Assembly: GCF_001870905.1 (NCBI RefSeq)
Contig: NZ_LNDC01000102.1
Span: 1 to 53,233, forward strand
Source: Geitlerinema sp. PCC 9228
GTDB taxonomy: Bacteria; Cyanobacteriota; Cyanobacteriia; Cyanobacteriales; PCC-9228
DNA length: 53,233 nucleotides
Direction: 5' to 3'
Positions within the stretch are counted from its first letter, which is position 1; each line of letters opens with the position of its first letter. Both the position numbers and the translations under genes were made by a program. The notes beneath the pieces were generated by a model. It was not told where the DNA came from. It made no database searches and was given only the letters and a program-made list of their open reading frames with translations. Below, one piece after another: positions 5,529 through 51,182 of the stretch.

Positions 5529-7221
5529 CCTGTTGTACCACTGATGGTGAGTTAGTGCAATGGGAAAGGGATCTCTGGTGAATACGTGGTTTGGATCTGG
5601 TTAGTACAAAGCGATCGCGCCCTCAAGAAGATCGCTGCCCCAATACTGCGAGTTGTCTTTTTTGTTCGCTGTTGGGAAAAGTACAGGAGGATTCTCCTGT
5701 TAAAAACTAGCGTAATATCTGTGGTGGCAAATGTCCGCTAAGAAAGCAAAGATTTTCTGAAGATTTTCTGGAAACGGTTGTACGGGAATTTTTACCTGCA
5801 GCAACTCGTTTTTTTTCGAGGTAAAATCTCCCAGCCATGGACAATATCGAACGAAAAAAAACCGCTCGATTGTCCGAAGGACCGGTGCGGTAGGCACCAT
5901 CGCAGCCAACACCAACCTCCATAAGAACATTATACAAGGCCACTTTTTTCCTTAGGAAAAATTTTGGGGATACTTTGGGATCGCCTGCCAATTGTAATAG
6001 CCAGTTATTATTTCTAAGGCGTCAATTTTTCGCGGCACTGAAAGCAAGTGCAAACATATTGGTTGGCTCGCCCCTTTTCCGGCTGGAAGGCTGGCCCAGC
6101 TCAGTGACTGCTTGCTGGGTTGGTGTCCTGGCTTGCTTTTATGATAGCGCTGTCCGGCCGGCGATCGCTACCTGTAGTGTCATGGATACGTCAATAGATA
6201 AGTAAATCTGTATGCTATTATAAGAAATGAAAATTACTGCCCCAACGATTGTTTGTACCTATCGCACAAGGGGCATTCCAGCCACCATTTGCTTCTTGCA
6301 GATATCGACGCCAGCAAACGTATCGAAAGTAGCGAAAATCCCAATATCTCTTTAGATATCTGTTACCAATCGTTTTCCTTCCTAGTAGCCAAAAGAAATC
6401 TGTCACAACGGCGACAAAACATTTAGAAAACCTTAAAAATGTATTGCAAATAACACTACTCAGATCGAAAAGCAATTCTCCTTCACCAGACGCTTCGCGA
6501 ACGCAAAAATTTTCTCTTTTTTTACCTGATATCTTTTACCGCTAGCCACCAGCAAGCAACCGCCAGATAGCCACTAGTTTCAATCTTTTACATTCCTTAA
6601 CACATTGTCTTCAACCGCAAACCGCAACTGTTTCTACGCCAGCCTCACAACAGGAGAAGCCAGCAACAAACCCTATGGTGCGATTTCATTGCAATAGACG
6701 AGACTTACGCGCGGGCAAATCTTCCCAGGAGTCGCCACCTCCAAGAGCATGGATGCCCCACAGGAGTTTTCCATACAAAATCCCCTTCTCTTTACTAAGG
6801 TATTTTCAAGAAATACGGTCAATTTTAAGATTTTTTACATGAGTTTAAGAAACTTGGCTGCCGATATTTAAAAAATAACTATTCCTTTATAGTAGCACAA
6901 AAGGTGGGTTCGTAGTCGATATTAAAAAAGGATAAAAATCCCCACAAAATCGGCAGAAGGTTTTACTATAAGAAGGTGAACCCCTGGGTAGTCAGAACAT
7001 TCATTTTCTTCCCAGAAGCAACTCAAATTTTCGGGCTTCTATATGTTTGTTTGAGGATGGTAGCCCTTGTCAAATAGAAGGAACAAAAATTACGTTCTGA
7101 CAATGAGAAACCAACAGAAAATTTGCCAATATACAACCTAAACGTTGTCCTTTTTGGGTTCTTGGTCTTGGTTTCTTAATGGGGTCAAAACCCGCCCAGT
7201 TATACACACCAAACAACCAAC

Positions 7222-7346
7222 AACGATACCTAGGGGTAGCAGCGCTCACGCGTTGCGCCCCCGTGCCTGCCCCTGACCAAAGGGCTACAAAACCCATTAC
7301 CGCTACCAATAACGATATGTAGGGGCAGTGCCCCCGTGCCTGCCCT
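7222..7346. repeat. degenerate tandem element upstream of nifJ, with right copy of the 17-nt repeat
   Basis: Two copies share AACGATA, TAGGGG(T/C)AG and GCCCCCGTGCCTGCCC (7257-7272 and 7329-7344). The first copy additionally carries GCGCTCACGCGTTGCGC (7242-7258), the inverse of the repeat at 5512. The second copy ends just before the nifJ ribosome site, so upstream GTG/ATG codons in the nifJ frame lie in repeat DNA and are poor start candidates. Confidence 0.6.
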
Positions 7347-7372
7347 TCGAGTTCGACATGCCGAGAGGATTT

Positions 7373-10300
7373 ATGAGAAACAGACAGTTTGCCACCCTAG
7401 ACGGAAACGAGGCGGTAGCGCGGGTAGCCTATCGTCTCAACGAAGTTATCGCCATTTATCCCATCACACCAGCCTCTCCCATGGGAGAATGGGCGGACTC
7501 CTGGATGAGCGAAGGGCGACCCAACTTATGGGGCACCGTGCCTTCCGTATACGAAATGCAAAGCGAAGCCGGTGCTGCCGGTGCCGTACACGGGTCGCTC
7601 CAAACCGGGTCGCTGACCACCACCTTCACAGCATCCCAAGGCTTGTTGCTGATGATCCCCAACCTCTACAAAATTGCTGGGGAACTATCCAGCGCAGTCA
7701 TTCACGTGGCAGCGCGTTCGGTAGCCGCCCAGGCACTGTCCATTTTTGGCGACCACAGCGATGTCATGGCAGCCCGCGCCACCGGGTTTGCCTTGTTGTG
7801 TTCGGCTTCCGTGCAAGAAGCCCATGACTTTGCCCTGATTTCCCAAGCCGCTACGTTAGAGTCGCGGGTACCCTTCATTCACTACTTCGACGGATTCCGT
7901 ACCTCCCACGAAATTCAAAAAGTAGAACTTCTAGAAGAAGAAGACCTACAATCGCTTATTAACGACGATTGCGTTCTCAACCACCGGCAGCGCGGTTTAA
8001 CCCCAGACCGCCCCGTGGTTCGCGGCACTGCCCAAAATCCCGACGTCTTCTTCCAAGCCCGGGAATCCGTCAACTCGTTCTACAACACTTGCCCCGAAAT
8101 CGTGCAGGAGGCGATGGATCAATTCGCCGAACGTACCGGTCGTCAGTATCGCATCTTTGAATACCACGGTGCCCCCGATGCTGAGCGCGTGTTGGTTTTG
8201 ATGGGGTCGGGCTGCGAAACGGCTCACGAAACTGTAGACTATCTCACCCAACAACAGGGAGAAAAGGTTGGGGTTCTAAAAGTCCGTCTGTACCGTCCCT
8301 TCAGCGCTGAACGTCTGGTGGAAGCTCTGCCAGATACCACCAAAGCGATCGCGGTTTTGGACCGTACCAAAGAACCCGGTTCCAACGGCGAACCCCTCTA
8401 TTTGGATGTGGTCAGCGCCGTTCAAGAGTTTTGGGAAACTGCCCCTCCCAAGGTAGTGGGCGGTCGCTACGGCTTATCCTCGAAAGAATTTACCCCAGCT
8501 ATGGTCAAGGGGGTCTTGGACAATTTACGTGCCGCCAGCCCCAAAAACCACTTCACTATCGGCATTGAAGACGACGTTACCAAAACTTCGCTGCCCTACG
8601 ATCCCAGCTTTTCCACGGAACCTGACAATGTGGTGCGTGCCATGTTCTACGGTTTGGGGTCGGACGGAACTGTGGGTGCCAACAAAAACTCTATCAAGAT
8701 TATTGGTGAAGAAACTAGCAATTTTGCCCAAGGGTACTTTGTTTACGATTCCAAAAAATCCGGTGCGGTGACTGTATCCCACTTGCGCTTCGGACCCAAC
8801 CGCATCCGCAGTACCTATCTCATCGACCAAGCCAATTTTGTGGGTTGCCACCAGTGGCAGTTTTTAGAGAAGTTCAATATTCTCAAGTCGGCCTCACGCG
8901 GTGCTACTTTCTTGCTGAATGCTCCCTACGACGACCCAGGCGAGGTTTGGAATAATTTGCCCGCTGAGGTCCAAGAGCAAGTGGTGCGCAAGGAGCTGAA
9001 ATGCTACGCTATCAACGCTTATAAGGTTGCGCGGGAAGTGGGGATGGGTTCGCGCATTAACACTGTCATGCAGGTGTGCTTCTTTGCCCTCTCTGGTGTG
9101 CTGCCCCGCGCTGAAGCGATCGCGCAAATCAAAAAAGCCATCGAAAAAACCTACGGCAAGAAAGGGCAAGAAATTGTCCGCATGAACCTGCGTGCGGTAG
9201 ACCAAGCTTTGGAACGCATGTTTGAGGTACCCGTGGGCGAACCCAACAGCGATCGCCATACGGTGCCTGCGGTACCAACAAGCGCTCCCGATTTCGTGCG
9301 GGAAGTGGAAGGCAAAATGCTAGCCAAAGAAGGCGACCAGCTACCGGTGAGCAAACTGCCCTGCGATGGCAGCTACCCCACCGGCACTTCCAAGTGGGAA
9401 AAACGCAATGTCGCCCAATTCATTCCGGCTTGGGAACCGGATATTTGCATCCAGTGCGGCAAATGTATTGTAGCTTGTCCCCACGGCGTCATTCGCGGCA
9501 AGCCCTACGACGAACAGCAACTGGCGAATGCGCCGGAAACCTTCAAATTCGCCGATGTGAAGGATAAAGAATTTTCCGGCCAGAAGTTCACCATTCAGGT
9601 AGCCCCGGAAGACTGCACTGGCTGCGGCATTTGCGTGGATGTTTGCCCTGCTAAGGACAAAAGCAAGCCTTCGCGCAAAGCTCTCAATATGACGGAACAA
9701 CCGCCTATCCGCGAGTCCGAACGGGAAAATTGGGAGTTCTTCCTTAGCTTGCCCAATCCCGATCGCCGGCAGTTGAATAACGAACGGGTGCGCCAGCAAC
9801 AGTGGCAGGAACCGCTGTTTGAATTCTCTGGTGCTTGCGCTGGTTGCGGTGAAACGCCGTATTTGAAGCTGATGAGCCAGCTATTCGGCGATCGCGCGGT
9901 TATCGCCAACGCCACCGGTTGTTCTTCTATCTACGGCGGCAACCTCCCCACCACCCCTTGGGCGCACAATGCGGAAGGTCGCGGTCCTGCCTGGTCCAAT
10001 AGCTTGTTTGAGGACAATGCTGAATTTGGTTTGGGCTTCCGCCTGTCGCTCAACAAACACACCCAATTTGCTGCTGAAATGCTGCAACGCCTCAGCGGTG
10101 AGGTGGGAGACAATTTGGTGCAGCAAATCCTGCAAGCGGAACAACGCACAGAAGCCGATATTTACGAACAGCGCGAACGGGTGGCGCATCTGAAGAAAAT
10201 CCTGCAAGGCCTCAACACCCCAGAGGCGAAACAAATGATGAGCCTGGCTGACTATCTGGTGAAGAAGAGCGTCTGGATTGTCGGCGGTGACGGTTGGGCG

Positions 10301-11008
10301 TACGACATTGGCTTTGGCGGTTTGGACCACGTTCTCGCCAGCGGTCAAAATGTGAATGTGCTGGTTTTGGATACTGAGGTTTATTCCAATACTGGCGGTC
10401 AATCGTCTAAGGCTACCCCACGGGGGGCTGTTGCTAAGTTCGCTGCTGGCGGCAAACCTTCTGCCAAGAAAGACCTGGGCATGATTGCTATGACCTACGG
10501 CAATATCTATGTAGGCAGCGTTGCTATGGGGGCGCGCGACGAACACACTCTGCGCACTTTCTTAGAGGCGGAAGCCTATGACGGACCTTCTTTGATTTTG
10601 GCCTACTCCCACTGCATTGCCCACGGTATCGATATGTCTACGGCGATGCACCACCAGAAAGAGTTGGTGGATAGCGGTCGTTGGATGCTGTATCGCTACA
10701 ATCCCGATTTGGTGAAGGAGGGCAAAAATCCTTTGCATATCGATATGCGATCGCCCAAGAAACCCGTACGGGAGTCCATGTACAAAGAAAACCGCTTCAA
10801 GATGCTCACCAAGACCAAACCCGCCGAAGCCAAGCGGTTGCTCAAGGAAGCCCAAGAAGATGTCAACGCTCGTTGGGATATGTACCAATATCTAGCCAAT
10901 CGCAAGCTAGAAGAAAACGGTCACCATCACGAAGGAAATTCTTCGGAAAGCTCAGGGCAAAGCGGCAATCAAAGCTCAAACCAACAGCAAAGCCAGGCCT
11001 CTTCTTAG
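7373..11008 (+). CDS. nifJ: pyruvate:ferredoxin (flavodoxin) oxidoreductase
   Basis: 1211 residues, the normal length for a single-chain homodimeric enzyme. It oxidises pyruvate with CoA to acetyl-CoA and CO2, passing electrons to ferredoxin or flavodoxin. N-terminal domain: AIYPITPASPMGEW, the pyruvate-binding loop. Near residues 688-760 are two 4Fe-4S motifs, CIQCGKCIVACPHG and CTGCGICVDVCPAK. C-terminal TPP domain: CAGCGETPYLKL, GDGWAYDIGFGGLDH and the NTGGQSSKATPRGA loop. The start at 7373 follows GAGAGGA at a good distance and gives MRNRQFATLDG, matching the usual family N-terminus; GTG 7328 and ATG 7358 lie further upstream in repeat DNA. The tail is a Ser/Gln/Asn-rich extension. A flavoprotein gene follows 124 nt later. 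Despite the symbol, no nitrogenase genes are in view, so a fermentative or redox role is likely. Confidence 0.97.
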   Translation: MRNRQFATLDGNEAVARVAYRLNEVIAIYPITPASPMGEWADSWMSEGRPNLWGTVPSVYEMQSEAGAAGAVHGSLQTGSLTTTFTASQGLLLMIPNLYKIAGELSSAVIHVAARSVAAQALSIFGDHSDVMAARATGFALLCSASVQEAHDFALISQAATLESRVPFIHYFDGFRTSHEIQKVELLEEEDLQSLINDDCVLNHRQRGLTPDRPVVRGTAQNPDVFFQARESVNSFYNTCPEIVQEAMDQFAERTGRQYRIFEYHGAPDAERVLVLMGSGCETAHETVDYLTQQQGEKVGVLKVRLYRPFSAERLVEALPDTTKAIAVLDRTKEPGSNGEPLYLDVVSAVQEFWETAPPKVVGGRYGLSSKEFTPAMVKGVLDNLRAASPKNHFTIGIEDDVTKTSLPYDPSFSTEPDNVVRAMFYGLGSDGTVGANKNSIKIIGEETSNFAQGYFVYDSKKSGAVTVSHLRFGPNRIRSTYLIDQANFVGCHQWQFLEKFNILKSASRGATFLLNAPYDDPGEVWNNLPAEVQEQVVRKELKCYAINAYKVAREVGMGSRINTVMQVCFFALSGVLPRAEAIAQIKKAIEKTYGKKGQEIVRMNLRAVDQALERMFEVPVGEPNSDRHTVPAVPTSAPDFVREVEGKMLAKEGDQLPVSKLPCDGSYPTGTSKWEKRNVAQFIPAWEPDICIQCGKCIVACPHGVIRGKPYDEQQLANAPETFKFADVKDKEFSGQKFTIQVAPEDCTGCGICVDVCPAKDKSKPSRKALNMTEQPPIRESERENWEFFLSLPNPDRRQLNNERVRQQQWQEPLFEFSGACAGCGETPYLKLMSQLFGDRAVIANATGCSSIYGGNLPTTPWAHNAEGRGPAWSNSLFEDNAEFGLGFRLSLNKHTQFAAEMLQRLSGEVGDNLVQQILQAEQRTEADIYEQRERVAHLKKILQGLNTPEAKQMMSLADYLVKKSVWIVGGDGWAYDIGFGGLDHVLASGQNVNVLVLDTEVYSNTGGQSSKATPRGAVAKFAAGGKPSAKKDLGMIAMTYGNIYVGSVAMGARDEHTLRTFLEAEAYDGPSLILAYSHCIAHGIDMSTAMHHQKELVDSGRWMLYRYNPDLVKEGKNPLHIDMRSPKKPVRESMYKENRFKMLTKTKPAEAKRLLKEAQEDVNARWDMYQYLANRKLEENGHHHEGNSSESSGQSGNQSSNQQQSQASS

Positions 11009-11132
11009 AGCCAGTTAAGGAGTAGGGAGCTACCGAGCATACCGAGTATGGGGGTATGAAATTATCTTCCCCCTCCTCCCCCTCCTCCCACTCAAGCAAC
11101 AGCAATGGATACAAAATAAGGAGCATTCCAAC

Positions 11133-12155
11133 ATGATAGATTTACGCACGAATTACATGGGGCTGGAACTGAGAACCCCAATCGTTCCCTCTTCCGCCGC
11201 CCCTTTATCGGAAGAAGTTGACGATATCAAAAGAATGGAAGATGCCGGTGCCTCGGCAGTTGTACTGCACTCCTTGTTTGAAGAACAATTGCTGCGGGAA
11301 AAATTTGAACTCCACCACCACATGGAGTACGGCACCGAAAGCTTTCCCGAGGCACTGACCTATTTTCCAGAACCCGACGAATTCCACGTGGGTCCGGAAC
11401 TGTATCTAGAACACATTCGCCAAGCCAAAGAAAGCGTTGATATTCCCATTATTGCCAGCTTGAACGGTTATTCTACCGGCGGTTGGGTAGAATATGCCCG
11501 TTCTATGCAGCAAGCTGGTGCCGATGCCATCGAACTAAACGTTTACTACGTTCCCACTGACCCAGACGTTACCAGCCATCAAGTTGAAGACAACTACGTG
11601 AATATCCTGCGGGAAGTAGAAGCGGAAGTTTCTATTCCTGTGGCGATTAAACTCAGTCCTTTCTTCAGCAACTTTGCCCACATGGCCAAGCGTTTGGATG
11701 AAGCTGGTGCCGATGGTTTGGTGCTGTTTAACCGCTTCTACCAGCCAGATATCGATATCGAACATTTAGAGGTGTATCCCCACTTACTGCTCAGTAGTGC
11801 TTCTGACATGCGCCTACCTATGCGCTGGATTGCTTTGCTATACGGTCGCATTCGCCCGGATATGGCAGCTACCAGTGGTATCCAGCACGGTACGGATATT
11901 CTGAAAATGCTCATGGCAGGGGCAAAGGTTACCCACGTCTGTTCGGCTTTGCTGCGCCATGGCATTAATTACATTCAAACGTTGGAGAGGGAAGTCGTTC
12001 ACTGGATGGAAGAACACGAATACGATTCTGTTGAACTCATGCAAGGGAGCATGAGCCAACTCCACTGCCCCGACGAATCTTCCTACGAACGGGCGCAGTA
12101 CATGAAAGCCATTCAAACTTACCATCCCGAAACGGCCTTCCACCATGCTTCGTAA
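11133..12155 (+). CDS. dihydroorotate-dehydrogenase-like flavoprotein
   Basis: 340 residues, a TIM-barrel FMN protein of the DHOD/PreA superfamily. FMN-binding features are visible: VAIKLSPF with its Lys, and the phosphate-binding C-terminal stretch around TSGIQHGTDILKMLMAGA. In true DHODs the strand reading ELN is followed by a loop with the catalytic Cys or Ser (N-x-S-C-P-N); here residues 132-138 read IELNVYY and the loop lacks both. It is therefore unlikely to be the pyrimidine enzyme PyrD. AAGGAG lies 10 nt before ATG 11133. Its position directly after nifJ suggests a reductive or electron-transfer reaction tied to ferredoxin or pyruvate metabolism; that is inference. A clear terminator follows at 12185. 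Confidence 0.85.
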   Translation: MIDLRTNYMGLELRTPIVPSSAAPLSEEVDDIKRMEDAGASAVVLHSLFEEQLLREKFELHHHMEYGTESFPEALTYFPEPDEFHVGPELYLEHIRQAKESVDIPIIASLNGYSTGGWVEYARSMQQAGADAIELNVYYVPTDPDVTSHQVEDNYVNILREVEAEVSIPVAIKLSPFFSNFAHMAKRLDEAGADGLVLFNRFYQPDIDIEHLEVYPHLLLSSASDMRLPMRWIALLYGRIRPDMAATSGIQHGTDILKMLMAGAKVTHVCSALLRHGINYIQTLEREVVHWMEEHEYDSVELMQGSMSQLHCPDESSYERAQYMKAIQTYHPETAFHHAS

Positions 12156-12184
12156 CCGTTGATAAAACATGGCCATGCCTGGAG

Positions 12185-12216
12185 GGGCAAGCCACGGTGC
12201 TTGCCCTTTCTTTTTA
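12185..12216 (+). terminator. rho-independent terminator after the nifJ / DHOD-like genes
   Basis: GGGCAAGC (12185-12192) pairs with GCTTGCCC (12199-12206), followed by TTTCTTTTTA. It closes the nifJ transcription unit. Confidence 0.85.
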
Positions 12217-12343
12217 TTAGGAGGTATTTGCCATAGGCTGTCAGGAAGGTTTTACAAAAGTTGACAATTTTAAGATTCTCAGTACCATAGGGGGTACTTC
12301 CTAATTTTTTTATTTTCGGTTTTGCTTCCATCCAACGACCGCC

Positions 12344-12376
12344 GGGGCGTTTCGCGAAACACCCCTTAGGGCAAGC
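12344..12376. repeat. palindromic repeat with TTTCGCGAAA core
   Basis: GGGG-C-GTTTCGCGAAAC-A-CCCC (12344-12365) is nearly perfectly self-complementary and is followed by TTAGGGCAAGC. It matches the layout of the palindrome at 93-132, and a shorter relative is at 33418-33435. A dispersed repeat family upstream of or between genes is the best reading. Confidence 0.6.
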
Positions 12377-12433
12377 CCTCTCGGTCCACCTCAGCATAAG
12401 CACCGAGATCGTTGCTGTATATTTCCCCCCCAT

Positions 12434-13738
12434 ATGGTTTTTCAAAATTTTCCTTTTCGCAAGCCTTCAGTGTCTAGAAAAATTTCCCTTAGTTTGTTTC
12501 TACTGAGCGGTTTGGTGCCCCTACTGAATGGGTGTGGTAATTTTTGGAATGCCCCCACTCAAGCACAAACTGAAGAGCGCGCCCGAGACAATTCTCTGCC
12601 GAAAGTACAAAGCGCGATCGCGCAGCAAAAAATTCTCAAAAAGCCGCTTATCTACCAAGGAACCACAGCACCGCAACAGGTGGTCGCCCTGCGATCGCAA
12701 GCAGAAGGACAGTTGCAAACCCTAACGGTAGATGTGGGTGACTCCGTCCAACAAGGACAAGTTCTAGCACAACTCAACGATACCCTTTTTAAAACCAATC
12801 TTACCGAAGCGGAAGCCGAACTAGCCAGTCGCCTCGCTGAAGTCAGCCGCGCCCAAAATCAAGTCAAAAGCGCAAAGATTCAACTAGAGCAAGCACAAGC
12901 CGAAGCCGAACAAGCACAAGCCGATGCCCGACGCTTAGAGGCCCTAGCAGAAAAAGGCGTAGTTCCCGAACAAAATGCCGATTTAGCCCAAACCGAATCC
13001 GTGGTTGCCCAAAAACAAGTCCGCGCCGCCCGGGAACAAATCCAAATCGAACAAAATGCTGTAGAAACCGCACAAGAACAAGTGCGTGCCCAAAGGTCTA
13101 TTATCGCCCAAGCCCAAGAACGCCGTTCCTATACCACGCTGAAATCTCCCATTACCGGCGTAGTTTTGGAACGGGTAACCGACCCGGGAAACTTAATTCA
13201 ACCGGGAGATGAAGTTTTAACCATTGGGGATTTTCGCAATGTCAAAGTGAGGGTTTCTGTTTCTGAGCTGGCTTTGGCGGATATTCGTCAAGGGCAGCAA
13301 GTCCAAGTGCGATTGGATGCCTTTCCCAACGAAACCTACACCGGGCGGATTAGCCGCATTTCTCCGGCTGCCAACGCCGAAACCCGACAGGTGCCTGTGG
13401 AAGTGATTCTTCCCAACCCGCAGGGGCGTATTGCTAGTGGTTTGCTGGCGAGAGTTTCTTTTCCCAGGCAAACTACCGAACGAGTTGTTATTCCAGAAAC
13501 GGCTTTACATCAGGAAAACGAAGATAAAACGGCAACTGTATTTGTCTTGAATGCTCAAACCCAACCGCCAACGGTCAGGGCGCAAACCGTAAAAATTGGC
13601 GATCGCGCTCACAATGAAGTGGAGATATTATCGGGACTAGCCCCGCAAACCCGTTATGTGGTGCGCAGCAGCCGTCCTTTACATTCTGGCGATGCCGTGC
13701 GTTTGAGTGCTCTTTCAGGAAATACGAACCAAAAATGA
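12434..13738 (+). CDS. RND efflux periplasmic adaptor (HlyD/AcrA family), lipoprotein
   Basis: 434 residues. A hydrophobic signal segment ends in a lipobox (LLNGC, Cys34), so the protein is probably lipid-anchored in the periplasm. Next come a lipoyl/barrel-sandwich half (QAEGQLQTLTVDVGDSVQQG), a long Ala/Gln/Glu-rich hairpin coiled coil (about residues 110-235), the second lipoyl half (YTTLKSPITGVVLERV) and beta-barrel plus membrane-proximal domains. It would link the inner-membrane pump to an outer-membrane channel. Its stop overlaps the start of the permease gene by 4 nt (ATGA), so the two are co-translated. The substrate is unknown. No outer-membrane TolC-like gene is adjacent. Confidence 0.92.
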   Translation: MVFQNFPFRKPSVSRKISLSLFLLSGLVPLLNGCGNFWNAPTQAQTEERARDNSLPKVQSAIAQQKILKKPLIYQGTTAPQQVVALRSQAEGQLQTLTVDVGDSVQQGQVLAQLNDTLFKTNLTEAEAELASRLAEVSRAQNQVKSAKIQLEQAQAEAEQAQADARRLEALAEKGVVPEQNADLAQTESVVAQKQVRAAREQIQIEQNAVETAQEQVRAQRSIIAQAQERRSYTTLKSPITGVVLERVTDPGNLIQPGDEVLTIGDFRNVKVRVSVSELALADIRQGQQVQVRLDAFPNETYTGRISRISPAANAETRQVPVEVILPNPQGRIASGLLARVSFPRQTTERVVIPETALHQENEDKTATVFVLNAQTQPPTVRAQTVKIGDRAHNEVEILSGLAPQTRYVVRSSRPLHSGDAVRLSALSGNTNQK

Positions 13739-47058: not shown

Positions 47059-48027
47059 ATGGCTACGATAATGACGCGCCCGTATTTAGGTGCCAAAGAT
47101 TTAAGTAAAATTACCAATTTAGTAGAAGTTTCCAACCCCACCGGATATCTCGACGGAGACACCTCCGTCTGCGAACTGCCAGCCATGCTCGCAGAACCCG
47201 AATCGGACAACTCTCGCAACATTCGCTTGTGGGAAGACGCCAACGGCAACCTCGTAGGATTCGGACAACTGCTGGTTTTTCATACCCCAGAAACCGTTGA
47301 TGGCTGGTTGATTTTCTTTACCCACCCACAAGTAAGTGGCGATGGCTTGGAATCGGAAATCATCGATTGGGCAGAACGTCGCATGCGGTGGTTGGGTCGC
47401 GAACAGCAACTGCCCGCAGTTTTGCATACTGACGTTCGTGACGATACCCTCAGCCGCCAAGCTTGGGTAGAACGCCACGGCTTCCATCGCGATCGGGCCT
47501 TCGTAACCATGAAACACGACACCCCCAATACCCTAGAATCGCGACCCATGCCGGAAGGCTTTACCCTACGTTCCGTATCCCAAAACCAAGCCGACATCAA
47601 AGCCTGGGTGGATTTGTTCAACCAATCTTTTTGCGATCATTGGAACCACCACGACATCGACGAAGCGACCCTACAACGCTGGCTTTCTAACCCCCACAAC
47701 CAATCCGATCTCAACCTGATTGCAGTTTCCTCTCGAGGAGATTTCGCCGCTTTGGGATACGGATATATTAACCCAGAAGAAAACGCTCGCACGGGGGAAA
47801 ACGTCGGCTGGATTAAGTGGTTGGGAACCCGACGCAACTTCCGCCGCCGTGGCTTGGGCAAAACCATGCTGCTAGCCACCATGCGGCAACTCTACAGCAA
47901 AGGCGTCGAAGCCGTAAAACTAAGCGTGGATGCTGACAGTTCCACCAAAGCCATGAGCTTGTATCAATCCGTTGGCTTCCAACCTTTAGAAACCTGGATT
48001 TCCTATACGAACGCTTTATATCTATAA
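47059..48027 (+). CDS. tandem GNAT-family N-acetyltransferase
   Basis: 322 residues with two GNAT-like halves. The N-terminal half (about 10-150) has degenerate motifs (NLVGFGQLLVF). The C-terminal half (about 165-320) has the acetyl-CoA loop RNFRRRGLGKTML and the motif-B end SMSLYQSVGF-type sequence (KAMSLYQSVGF). The layout is like MshD-type double GNATs, where only one half is active. The acceptor is unknown. ATG 47059 has GTGGGAG about 13 nt upstream. Confidence 0.88.
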   Translation: MATIMTRPYLGAKDLSKITNLVEVSNPTGYLDGDTSVCELPAMLAEPESDNSRNIRLWEDANGNLVGFGQLLVFHTPETVDGWLIFFTHPQVSGDGLESEIIDWAERRMRWLGREQQLPAVLHTDVRDDTLSRQAWVERHGFHRDRAFVTMKHDTPNTLESRPMPEGFTLRSVSQNQADIKAWVDLFNQSFCDHWNHHDIDEATLQRWLSNPHNQSDLNLIAVSSRGDFAALGYGYINPEENARTGENVGWIKWLGTRRNFRRRGLGKTMLLATMRQLYSKGVEAVKLSVDADSSTKAMSLYQSVGFQPLETWISYTNALYL

Positions 48028-48053: not shown

Positions 48054-48875
48054 TTATCCTCCCATCTCCCCATCTTTTTCCCAAACCAACCTTTCAGCAT
48101 CCCTACTGGCAAGGGGAAAGTCAAATATCTGCCCCGGTTTGACAAACCCCAAAAACCCATCTGCCTTCGCATCGGGAACCGGTCCTGGCTGGTAGCCGTA
48201 CAGCCACATTTTTTGCTTGTATTTTTGAGGAAGTTTTCGTAAATGGCGATAGTGGGCGTGAACAGGAGAAGGCGAGCGAGAAGTTTCGCAGTCGTGAAAA
48301 ATAATATCCGCTCGGTCGTAGAATTTTTCCAAAGATTCTAAATGCAATTGCGTGTCTGTGGTTAGAAAAATCTTGGTTCCTCGTATCTGGAAAAACAACC
48401 CGTAACTGGGCATAATAAAATATCCCGTATCCACATGGATGACCCGTACCAACTGAAACCAAATATCCGACCAGGTAAAATATCCCTGCTGGGGAACTTC
48501 GCAGACATCAAAAAATGTATGCAAATCGGCAACGTTTCCATGAAGGGCACGCATGCCTCCGGATAGGGTATTTTCCCACAGTTGACCAGCCAAATCTTTG
48601 CTCAGATACAGTCGCGGGCGAATGCATTGGGAATCAAACTTGGTATTAAAGCCAATATATTCCAAACCGCCCACATGATCGGCGTGTAAATGGCTAATAT
48701 AAATATCCGTGATCTCGCGATAGGAGTATCCGTTGGCATGGAGCGACCAACGAATATCGCTGCCGCAATCGAGCAATAACTTATTATTGCTATCGTCGAT
48801 TAATAGTAAATTGGCTTGAAAATTATTGTCGCCGACGGTAAAAGCCGAACCAGAACCTAAAAATAGTAGTTTCAT
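48054..48875 (-). CDS. metallo-beta-lactamase-fold hydrolase
   Basis: 273 residues. It opens KLLFLGSGSAFTVGDNNFQ, with the metal motif H62-L-H64-A-D66-H67 in ISHLHADHVGG, a further ligand region TDTQLHLESL and FHDCETS. This is closest in layout to RNase Z / class II phosphodiesterase-like MBL proteins, not to lactamases. It starts 3 nt after the stop of the cyclase gene, so the two are translated from one message. The link makes a cyclic-nucleotide phosphodiesterase role possible, but the family is broad and the exact PDE signature H-x-H-L-D-H is not matched (A for L). Confidence 0.85.
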   Translation of the reverse strand: MKLLFLGSGSAFTVGDNNFQANLLLIDDSNNKLLLDCGSDIRWSLHANGYSYREITDIYISHLHADHVGGLEYIGFNTKFDSQCIRPRLYLSKDLAGQLWENTLSGGMRALHGNVADLHTFFDVCEVPQQGYFTWSDIWFQLVRVIHVDTGYFIMPSYGLFFQIRGTKIFLTTDTQLHLESLEKFYDRADIIFHDCETSRSPSPVHAHYRHLRKLPQKYKQKMWLYGYQPGPVPDAKADGFLGFVKPGQIFDFPLASRDAERLVWEKDGEMGG

Positions 48876-48878
48876 TCG

Positions 48879-51182
48879 TTAATCTTTCCGAACAGATTGA
48901 TATAAAGCCATTAACTTGGTATGAATTTCTTGGGGTTTGGCAGTAAAGCGAACGTGGAATCTAGAAGCATGGTTCGCTTCGGTGGCTAGTTGGGTGTTAC
49001 AAGCTAAAACTTTGGCATAGACATCGTATCTGGGGGTTTCTCCATCATTAGCAAAAAAGAAATTAATTTTGATGTTTTTTAAAGGTGATGGAATGCAAGC
49101 TTGAAAGCCATTGTCTACCGCAATTTCTGCTTCCTTGACTGATAGTTTGACCAAGCTACCCCAATAACAAGTATTGTTGACATGCTTGCCATCTAAAATG
49201 GAATACTGTAAAGGAATGGCTTCGCGAATCCAATATAACTTCTCTTGTTCTTTGAGTAACGATGTATTATATTTTCCTTGGATGGCATTAACTTCATATA
49301 CAGTAACGGGGGTTTGTACTCCTTTGAGATAAACTTCTTCCATGCGCCGTACTTTCACTCGATCTGCCACTTCTTCCCAGGTCGATTCGGAAATTAAAAT
49401 CTGGCCGCCTACTGTATAGGATTCGATCCGAAAAGCCAAATTGACCTGACTGCCCACAATGCCGTATTTGGTCCGTTTTTCGGAACCAATATTGCCCACC
49501 ACCACCTCGCCGGTGTTCATACCAATGCCCATTTCCAAGCTGGGCAGCCCCCAAGCTTGCATTTGCGTATTCACTTTTTCCATGGCTAATTGCATTTGTA
49601 ACGCACAAGCGATCGCCCGTTCGGTATCGTCGTGGCGGCTGGTAGGAGCCCCAAACATCACCAAGATGCCATCTCCCATAAACTCATCAATGGTGCCTTG
49701 ATACTCAGAAATAACATCAGCCATGCAAGATAAATAAAGATTTAAGACTTGGATGGCTTGCTCTGGCGAAAGACGTTCGGCAAGCATAGTAAACCCGCGC
49801 AAATCGGAGGTTAAAATGGTGACCCGACGGCGTTGTCCTCCCAGTTTCCTTTTCTCTGGGTCTTCTAGCAAGGTGGCCACCACCTCATCGCTGAGATAGC
49901 GTCCGAAGGTTTTGCGGATTTCCTTCGCCTGATGAGCCATGTATCCGGTAATGGCGATACCAGAACCCACCAAAGCCAGAAAAGGTGGCACCACAGGAAT
50001 CCACCACCCCCCTACCAAAGCGACATAGGTACCCACCAGCAAACTCCCCCCAGCCAGCAAGCTGCCGGCAAGTCGCACCAGGGAGATCCAACGTTTTTGC
50101 GGAGACAGCCGCCCCGTCCAAGCTAAGGTTGCACCAATTCCCGACCACAGCAGAATCCACAGCCACTCCACCGGTTCCGACCAAGTTTGGATGAGGGGAC
50201 GGTCGTCGAGGGCAGCACTGACGATCTGACTGGTTAGGTTGGCGTGGATTTCCACTCCTGACATACGTTCGGATAAAGTCAGCAAACCGCTGCTGAGGGG
50301 AGTAAAAAAGGCGTCTTGGAAGCTTTCGCCCACGCGACCGATTAAGACAATGCGATCGCTTGCCCAATCGTCAGGAATCCGACCTTCCAAAACATCGGTG
50401 AGGGAAACGGTATCGAAAAATTCCGTAGAACCGCGGTATTTGATTAAAATTTGATAGCCACCGGTATCGGCACGTACGTAACCGCCGTCGTTGGGTTGCA
50501 AGGGTTGAAAGGTTTCTTGGCCCAGCCGCCACTTTTGGGTCCCCTGGATGGGTTCTGGTTGAATGTTATCTTCTTGGAGATACATCAAGGCTAGGTAGAG
50601 GGCAAAGCTGTACACCATGTTGCCTTCGCTGTCGCGTAAGTATAGCAACCCCCGACGCACTCGGTCGTCAGCATCGATAATTAAATCGTTGGCACCCACT
50701 TGTTCTTTTTCTTTTAAGATAGGCGGTGGAGCGACGGCTTCGGTTTGGCGATCGCCAACGACTTTTTGAATGCCAATGAGATTGTCTGTGTTTTGGAAAA
50801 CCTCGGTCAGCTCTTCGTGACCGGGAGGAACGGGGACATCTCGGTAAATATCCAAGCCAATGGCACGGGGATTTTGTTCTTTTAGCCGGCGCAATACTTT
50901 GGCGTAAGTGCGATCGGAAAGAATGGATTGCCCCAAACGCTGAATATCCTGTTCGCCAATGCCCACAATGGCTACGCGACTGCGATTGTCTTCGGGCAAG
51001 GTCTCCCGAACGTTGCTGGGGATGGGTTGCCAGTGCATGTAGCGATCGTAAGCAGCCCACTCCCAAGACTGTAACAATCCAGTTGCACGCAAACCAATAA
51101 CGACGGCAGCTATGCTAGGTGCTGTCAGCCAAATACCAATTTGACGACGACCAAACCTATCGATCTGCTTCCATTTCCACAT
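48879..51182 (-). CDS. CHASE2-class III adenylate/guanylate cyclase with C-terminal PilZ-like domain
   Basis: 767 residues. Order: a TM helix (about 16-36), a CHASE2 extracytoplasmic sensor (about 40-335), three TM helices (about 345-425), a class III cyclase catalytic domain (about 450-635) and a C-terminal beta domain (about 660-760) with GSLVKLSVKEAEI and RFHVRFTA that weakly resembles PilZ. Metal Asp460 (TSDLRGFT) and Asp504 (FMGDG) are present, and the transition-state pair is in VNLAFR. The base-selecting position before the GD motif is Glu500, as in guanylate cyclases, but the second is Gly574 in YGIVGSQVN rather than Asp or Cys, so the product (cGMP or cAMP) is open. It is the first gene of an operon with the MBL hydrolase. 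Confidence 0.9.
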   Translation of the reverse strand: MWKWKQIDRFGRRQIGIWLTAPSIAAVVIGLRATGLLQSWEWAAYDRYMHWQPIPSNVRETLPEDNRSRVAIVGIGEQDIQRLGQSILSDRTYAKVLRRLKEQNPRAIGLDIYRDVPVPPGHEELTEVFQNTDNLIGIQKVVGDRQTEAVAPPPILKEKEQVGANDLIIDADDRVRRGLLYLRDSEGNMVYSFALYLALMYLQEDNIQPEPIQGTQKWRLGQETFQPLQPNDGGYVRADTGGYQILIKYRGSTEFFDTVSLTDVLEGRIPDDWASDRIVLIGRVGESFQDAFFTPLSSGLLTLSERMSGVEIHANLTSQIVSAALDDRPLIQTWSEPVEWLWILLWSGIGATLAWTGRLSPQKRWISLVRLAGSLLAGGSLLVGTYVALVGGWWIPVVPPFLALVGSGIAITGYMAHQAKEIRKTFGRYLSDEVVATLLEDPEKRKLGGQRRRVTILTSDLRGFTMLAERLSPEQAIQVLNLYLSCMADVISEYQGTIDEFMGDGILVMFGAPTSRHDDTERAIACALQMQLAMEKVNTQMQAWGLPSLEMGIGMNTGEVVVGNIGSEKRTKYGIVGSQVNLAFRIESYTVGGQILISESTWEEVADRVKVRRMEEVYLKGVQTPVTVYEVNAIQGKYNTSLLKEQEKLYWIREAIPLQYSILDGKHVNNTCYWGSLVKLSVKEAEIAVDNGFQACIPSPLKNIKINFFFANDGETPRYDVYAKVLACNTQLATEANHASRFHVRFTAKPQEIHTKLMALYQSVRKD

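Follow-up and report, generated by a model that had tools for sequence, protein, structure and literature searches.

A conserved cyanobacterial gene pair predicted to make and remove cGMP: a Cya2-type cyclase and an Apyc1-family hydrolase

Introduction

Two adjacent genes of the cyanobacterium Geitlerinema sp. PCC 9228 encode a nucleotide cyclase with a CHASE2 sensor domain and a protein of the metallo-beta-lactamase (MBL) fold. Both lie on contig NZ_LNDC01000102.1, which was analysed as one stretch of 53,233 nucleotides (nt), here called the window. We consider it probable that both genes belong to one operon serving a single second messenger—probably cyclic GMP (cGMP)—that would be made by the cyclase and hydrolysed by the MBL protein. 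The pair is conserved in many cyanobacteria, yet it is not universal.

Cyanobacteria have higher levels of cGMP than other bacteria, and a single cGMP phosphodiesterase is known in them (PMC4284465); few bacterial targets of cGMP are known (PMC10117731). The operon offers a candidate enzyme for removing the product of a Cya2-type guanylyl cyclase and, in some relatives, is followed by a gene for a candidate receiver. It also suggests a possible cellular role for Apyc1 enzymes, which are known from phage anti-defence, and makes a poorly understood bacterial signal directly testable. The chemistry is known and the arrangement seems new—the available portions of the open-licence literature contained no description of a cyclase–MBL pair, which is weak evidence of its being unreported, and we found no account of MBL phosphodiesterases in cyanobacteria in that literature.

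The gene pair in the window

The features of the pair, in the order in which they are read, are as follows.

48879..51182, minus strand: cyclase gene, a Cya2-type CHASE2 class III cyclase and predicted guanylyl cyclase (ATG open reading frame (ORF) of 767 amino acids (aa); Pfam and PDB matches)
50130..51110, minus strand: CHASE2 sensor domain, cyclase residues 25-351 (Pfam PF05226)
49296..49829, minus strand: class III catalytic domain, cyclase residues 452-629 (Pfam PF00211)
49683..49685, minus strand: codon for cyclase Glu500, which aligns with Cya2 Glu488 (2w01 and 6fht alignments)
48882..49262, minus strand: C-terminal extension of the cyclase, predicted PilZ-like (structure model, fold match)
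48876..48878, no strand: gap of 3 nt from the cyclase stop to the MBL start (sequence)
48054..48875, minus strand: MBL-fold gene, ATG start, 273 aa, predicted Apyc1-family phosphodiesterase (PF23023, 7u2r, fold)
48675..48692, minus strand: HLHADH metal-binding motif, MBL residues 62-67 (sequence)

A first-pass annotation of the window had placed the cyclase stop 3 nt from the MBL start, and this is exact by both the ORF coordinates and the junction sequence. The MBL motif does read HLHADH, also as first noted (SHLHADHVGGLE).

The MBL protein

Hydrolysis of cyclic nucleoside monophosphates (cNMPs), as a phosphodiesterase of the Apyc1 family, is the best-supported prediction for the MBL protein because of its homology to Apyc1 in profile, fold and metal ligands, and because of the published activity of Apyc1, which cleaves cyclic mononucleotides broadly, as do its close bacterial relatives (PMC9117128). 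In Pfam, the protein matches Anti-Pycsar_Apyc1 (PF23023) at 73.7 bits (cut-off 50, E 2e-20), with further matches to Lactamase_B (6.4e-11) and Lactamase_B_2 (3.2e-8). The three solved Apyc1 proteins (PDB 7U2R, 7U2S and 7T28; PMC9117128) are its top PDB sequence matches, whether the query is the single protein (7u2r, E 1.3e-25) or a 15-member profile. An AlphaFold2 model of the protein (predicted local distance difference test score, pLDDT, 81.0; predicted template modelling score, pTM, 0.83; poorly modelled at residues 104-112 and in the tail) retrieves the same three structures first in a fold search, at Z 29.6, 28.7 and 27.1, with root-mean-square deviations (rmsd) of 2.0-2.2 over 231-241 aligned residues; the closest is 7u2r (Z 29.6, rmsd 2.0, 239 aligned). 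Other folds rank lower: PqqB at Z 24.1, YhfI at 23.3, RNase Z at 21.7 and yeast PDE1 at 20.4.

The window protein shares with Apyc1 the Pfam family, the fold, the HxHxDH motif, the other ligands and the equivalent of catalytic residue E74, at 27-31% identity in structural alignment. Where the two differ is in setting—Apyc1 proteins are known from phages as anti-Pycsar proteins, together with bacterial relatives, whereas the window gene is chromosomal and follows a predicted receptor guanylyl cyclase.

Residue conservation was counted over 81 aligned proteins, namely the window protein and 80 homologues from the scan of named genomes described below. All of the ligands (H62, H64, D66, H67, H147, D174 and H206) are intact in the window protein; the first four, along with E72, are kept in 81/81, H147 in 80/81, and D174 and H206 in 79/81 each, with the truncated L131 and L138 as the exceptions. 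Glu72 lies five residues past the last His of the motif, likewise in 7t28, and by this spacing would hold the place of the catalytic Glu (E74 of SBSphiJ). By the same inferred mapping, the catalytic Tyr that comes from the other protomer (Y112 of SBSphiJ) corresponds to Tyr113 in 7t28 and Ala110 in the window protein; this place does not discriminate, since 7u2s has Asn and 7u2r a gap.

Strict class II phosphodiesterases carry HXHLDH, and atypical class II phosphodiesterases are defined by [T/S]HXHXDH (PMC9293780). The window sequence, SHLHADH, fits the second and fails the first, and a strict class II identity was rejected on that ground; the motif by itself decides nothing, since a cyanobacterial RNase Z (L002) carries THMHGDH. 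Atypical class II enzymes (Rv1339, YhfI and C. glutamicum CpdA) share with the window protein the [T/S]HXHXDH motif, the MBL fold and, by prediction for the latter, cNMP hydrolysis; they differ in profile and fold, as NCBIfam NF041851—one equivalog model, not the whole atypical class—gives 25.4 bits against a cut-off of 400, and YhfI reaches Z 23.3 against 29.6 for Apyc1. The first-pass suggestion that the MBL protein degrades the product of the cyclase is supported computationally and sharpened: the protein is assigned to the Apyc1 family instead of strict class II, and the predicted product of the cyclase is cGMP.

The first-pass annotation had also proposed placing the protein relative to RNase Z, and it falls outside that clade. 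In a tree of 73 rows (quick method, support by the Shimodaira–Hasegawa-like approximate likelihood ratio test, SH-aLRT, only), it groups with Apyc1, and five cyanobacterial RNase Z proteins split off with SH-aLRT 100 on a branch of length 4.59. The window protein sits within a set of 17 rows (support 92) that are all cyanobacterial except L110, with many weak inner forks. The tree was built without YhfI, yeast PDE1 and Rv1339, and the separation from YhfI and yeast PDE1 comes from the fold comparison only. The RNase Z model TIGR02651 matches weakly over residues 2-72 (59.8 bits, cut-off 292.95), and the genome has its RNase Z as a separate gene (C63:2037-2951) scoring 372.2 bits; profile, tree and separate gene together reject an RNase Z identity.

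The cyclase

Pfam matches in the cyclase are CHASE2 (8.3e-69) and Guanylate_cyc (2.5e-27), and the metal-binding Asp pair and the catalytic Asn and Arg are intact. Its top natural PDB match is 2w01, Synechocystis Cya2 (E 2.3e-76); 6fht, which ranks above it, is a phytochrome fusion that carries Lys in place of the Glu shared by 2w01 and the window. The Cya2 variant E488K is an adenylyl cyclase, and Glu488 is tied to GTP specificity (PMC5995499). Because the window cyclase has Glu at this place, cGMP is the probable shared signal, and the protein is predicted from its sequence to be a Cya2-type guanylyl cyclase making cGMP; adenylyl cyclase as its likely activity was set aside, as Glu stands where Lys would be expected. 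The window's genome has 18 class III matches, and among the 10 domains inspected Glu occurs in the window cyclase alone, with Lys in the other nine. Cya2-type cyclases that adjoin an MBL gene elsewhere have Glu as well where the motifs were inspected, plus Gly where the second motif is visible in the same ORF.

Cya2 itself (Sll0646 of Synechocystis PCC 6803) has in common with the window cyclase the CHASE2 domain, the class III domain, Glu at the E488 place and a C-terminal extension, and the window cyclase is 50-54% identical over its full length to copies from congeners of Cya2. The available portions of the Cya2 literature do not mention a phosphodiesterase partner. Slr2100, the known Synechocystis cGMP phosphodiesterase, resembles the window MBL protein in the predicted removal of cGMP in a cyanobacterium, a likeness of described function (PMC4284465; PMC10117731).

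The C-terminal extension of Cya2 is structurally uncharacterised and important for stimulating activity (PMC5995499). The last 127 residues of the window cyclase correspond to it and align with 45 relatives, including the Synechocystis salina Cya2. Modelling of this part (pLDDT 85.7, pTM 0.80) predicts a PilZ-like fold for the extension of Cya2-type cyclases: the model matches 3kyf (Z 13.0, rmsd 3.3, 115 aligned), and the matches at Z >=9.3 are mostly titled as PilZ or cyclic di-GMP (c-di-GMP) receptor proteins. PilZ domains bind c-di-GMP through the motifs RxxxR and [DN]xSxxG; neither is found in any of the 46 aligned rows.

Conservation of the pair in cyanobacteria

In a sample of 292 genomes across the phylum (threshold E 1e-10), an MBL match was found in 21, and a close type in 15 genomes at 16 loci, the window among them; apart from the window itself, these proteins are 54-65% identical to the window protein. 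At 13 of the 16 loci the gene immediately upstream, in the same orientation, encodes a cyclase of the same type, with a spacing of 3-116 nt by the chosen starts; the other three are L024, L025 and L029. In L024 and L025 the MBL gene follows DUF3854 and TPR genes, the same genes that precede a DUF928-cyclase-MBL run in L028 and L031. No DUF928-cyclase part lies between the TPR gene and the MBL gene in L024 and L025, and the cyclase type found elsewhere in both genomes has Asp/Thr at the substrate positions. The cyclase type, counted at E 1e-120 with mostly the top three candidates scored per genome and hence as a lower bound, is present in at least 47 of the 292 genomes, among them all 15 with the close MBL type.

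A scan of named genomes covered the best 80 of 88 loci, 59 of them cyanobacterial and 21 titled as non-cyanobacterial. Of the 59 cyanobacterial loci, 44 have a cyclase gene directly upstream in the same orientation, no more than 400 nt away; when the run may span as many as three genes, 45 include a cyclase and 33 include DUF928. The conservation across cyanobacteria that the first-pass annotation had asked about is therefore borne out, by 13/16 close loci and 44/59 cyanobacterial loci.

The pairing exceeds chance: in the named scan, 48/79 MBL genes have a cyclase as their immediate neighbour, in the same orientation and within 400 nt, as against none of 201 other genes on those contigs, and a cNMP-binding protein adjoins the MBL gene in 14/79 loci against 4/201. 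The P values of this test overstate the effect, since the loci are related to each other; the control is small (201 genes), and the cyclase and cNMP profiles were our own, built from 10 and 5 sequences. Pfam confirmed or rejected 17 neighbours, among 38 proteins of several kinds scanned in all. L130, where no MBL ORF was called, lies outside the 79 loci and was inspected by hand, and L161 gave no MBL match. The test's count of 10 downstream channels includes three short cNMP proteins (L067, L068 and L071), L067 being without an MscS domain.

The pair is present in all five genomes of the genus holding Synechocystis salina. Their Cya2 domains are 98, 96, 96, 75 and 69% identical to 2w01; a domain identical to 2w01 was not found among these five, the best being the 98% match.

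The wider run: DUF928 and an MscS-type channel

In 11 of the 13 paired loci (range L026-L038; Pfam-checked in two), the gene immediately before the cyclase is DUF928. Its product carries an apparent signal peptide in three sequences inspected and may be a partner for the CHASE2 sensor. No DUF928 gene precedes the cyclase in the window or L032; four DUF928 matches lie elsewhere in the window's genome.

After the MBL gene, L029, L033 and L034 encode an MscS-type channel whose C terminus carries a cNMP-binding domain, with two copies in L033. The named scan found such a channel within 800 nt in 13/59 cyanobacterial loci (L059, L063, L064, L072, L073, L085, L088, L089, L090, L092, L094, L098 and L103; L085 and L029 are one contig, and in L090 a 92-aa ORF separates the MBL gene from the channel). 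Channel identity was assigned by Pfam for L029, L033, L034 and L059, and for the rest by BLAST to the L034 channel (41-66%) together with the cNMP profile. The channel gene overlaps the MBL gene by 4 nt in L098 and L103; it is divergent in L102, and in L182 it follows a DUF928-cyclase run lacking the MBL gene. In L067, L068 and L071, the short cNMP-binding proteins stand next to the MBL gene instead of a channel. These channels resemble the bCNG channels in domain make-up (MscS fold and cNMP-binding domain). The window has no such channel beside its pair, and a search of its genome for an MscS-cNMP channel found none, the best match being an MscS protein without a Pfam cNMP domain. The phosphate-binding segment reads PRTA in the four channels inspected; we take its Thr to be a residue that can favour cGMP, though it is not decisive.

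The window is one entire contig of a genome of 4.8 Mb in 223 contigs, so the context upstream of the cyclase is limited to 2 kb. Beyond the MBL gene lies a convergent plus-strand ORF of 322 aa (47059-48027).

Proposed mechanism and alternatives

What the sequence analysis establishes is the two genes, their families, their intact catalytic residues and the conservation of the pair. Beyond that, our proposal is that the two genes share one transcript. The membrane-bound receptor cyclase would sense a cue outside the cytoplasm through CHASE2 and make cGMP, with GTP as the likely substrate given its Glu; the soluble Apyc1-family enzyme would hydrolyse cGMP, its presumed physiological substrate, to 5'-GMP. 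If both are made together, the hydrolase would keep the signal low and brief. In some relatives, the adjoining MscS-type cNMP channel would be the receiver, and elsewhere other cNMP-binding proteins may respond. A larger picture is tentative, and we hold it to be somewhat doubtful: the pair would be at the centre of a full cGMP circuit in which a DUF928 protein works from outside the cytoplasm with the CHASE2/PilZ-like guanylyl cyclase, the Apyc1-family enzyme switches the signal off, and an MscS-type channel is gated by cGMP. Apyc1 proteins would then serve as off-switches of cellular cyclic-nucleotide modules across several phyla, with phage anti-Pycsar activity as another use of them.

Several observations weigh against a dedicated cGMP pair, or at least stand beside it. 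Given the relaxed base specificity of Apyc1 enzymes, cGMP need not be the main substrate of the MBL protein. Among the 47 genomes with the cyclase type, 32 have no MBL match, and 14/59 cyanobacterial MBL loci lack a cyclase in the run; of these 14, L085 and L090 have the channel next, and L086 and L138 are near a contig end. The genomes of L184 and L185 keep the MBL gene alongside a remaining cyclase copy with Asp/Thr instead of Glu. Glu and Gly also occur in 14/19 unpaired cyclases (the others being three with Asp/Thr and two with Lys; L186, in fact paired, is omitted from the 19) and are therefore not special to paired ones. A second MBL copy, L023 (L038:7989-8774, genome G229), has NLHSDK in place of HxHxDH and lies behind an intact full-length cyclase; it is perhaps a dead or regulatory copy. 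The six distant homologues of the phylum sample, at about 30% identity (L017-L022), have no adjacent same-strand cyclase where inspected, the surroundings of L017 being only narrowly covered on its 4.6-kb contig. In L043, a 31%-identical cyclase lies 2.2 kb away. No cyclase, DUF928 or channel match lies near the homologues on viral contigs (L139-L160), and the Pfam scan of the cyclase gave no PilZ match.

Other accounts of the MBL protein fare less well. We find it unlikely that it is a general cNMP scavenger that lowers cAMP, cGMP, cCMP and cUMP on behalf of all class III cyclases of the cell. Such a role would suit the relaxed specificity of Apyc1 (PMC9117128), the 18 class III matches in the genome, the Lys-bearing (i.e. 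adenylyl-type) cyclases that adjoin homologues of other phyla, and stand-alone MBL copies such as L113; however, the gene beside it in cyanobacteria repeatedly encodes a single type of cyclase, whose substrate positions are Glu and Gly. Considerably less probable is cleavage of some other phosphodiester (a cyclic dinucleotide, a 2',3'-cNMP or RNA ends), with the pairing reflecting cross-talk, perhaps via the PilZ-like cyclase tail. The tail itself, the catalytic breadth of the MBL superfamily, and the Z scores of 20-24 for PqqB, PhnP-family and RNase Z folds are compatible with this; but the three Apyc1 structures rank above all others (Z 27.1-29.6), the tail lacks RxxxR and [DN]xSxxG in 46/46 rows, and a phage Apyc1, described as acting on cyclic mononucleotides, left a sensor of cyclic-dinucleotide loss untriggered (PMC12657218).

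A Pycsar-like defence operon carrying its own off-switch is more improbable still. It is brought to mind by the discovery of Apyc1 as a phage anti-Pycsar protein (PMC9117128) and by a PADLOC scan of the two proteins, in which PycC models match the cyclase (best 6e-25) and nothing matches the MBL protein. The PycC matches, however, are confined to the catalytic domain that is common to class III cyclases; the window cyclase combines a CHASE2 sensor with a guanylyl-type site, and the pair recurs across cyanobacterial families. Scarcely credible, finally, is an RNase Z paralogue that adjoins the cyclase by chance: it has the weak TIGR02651 match in its favour and is contradicted by the tree, the fold, the separate RNase Z gene and the conserved pairing.

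Homologues in other phyla and on viral contigs

Two of the 21 loci titled as non-cyanobacterial, L110 and L119, may be misbinned, since the tree places L110 within the cyanobacterial set and L119 is alike by identity. In seven of the other 19, the MBL gene shares a same-strand run of at most three genes with a class III cyclase or a cNMP-binding protein, and in 12 it does not. The seven are as follows.

L116: response-regulator cyclase in the MBL run
L123: cNMP proteins flanking the MBL gene on both sides
L124: cyclase in the MBL run
L125: Crp-like protein in the MBL run
L129 (Legionellaceae), 6631-8762: cNMP-CAAX protease in the MBL run
L133 (Legionellaceae), 7995-12574: cNMP-patatin phospholipase, then a Cache cyclase, in the MBL run
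L130 (Magnetospirillum metagenome-assembled genome), 6052-12113: tight run of a CHASE2 cyclase overlapping the MBL gene, a cNMP protein and a cNMP-PAS-GGDEF protein

The L130 run could link a cyclic mononucleotide to c-di-GMP, and the neighbours in L129 and L133 are possible cyclic-nucleotide-controlled effectors. In L134 a CHASE2 cyclase is the fourth gene of a tight run and falls outside the three-gene rule. The substrate position holds Lys in the cyclases of L116, L124, L133 and L134, and the L130 cyclase has Asp and Ala.

The viral homologues number 22, on contigs of about 25 to 543 kb, and form one clade (SH-aLRT 87); phage families were matched by six of the ten neighbours scanned.

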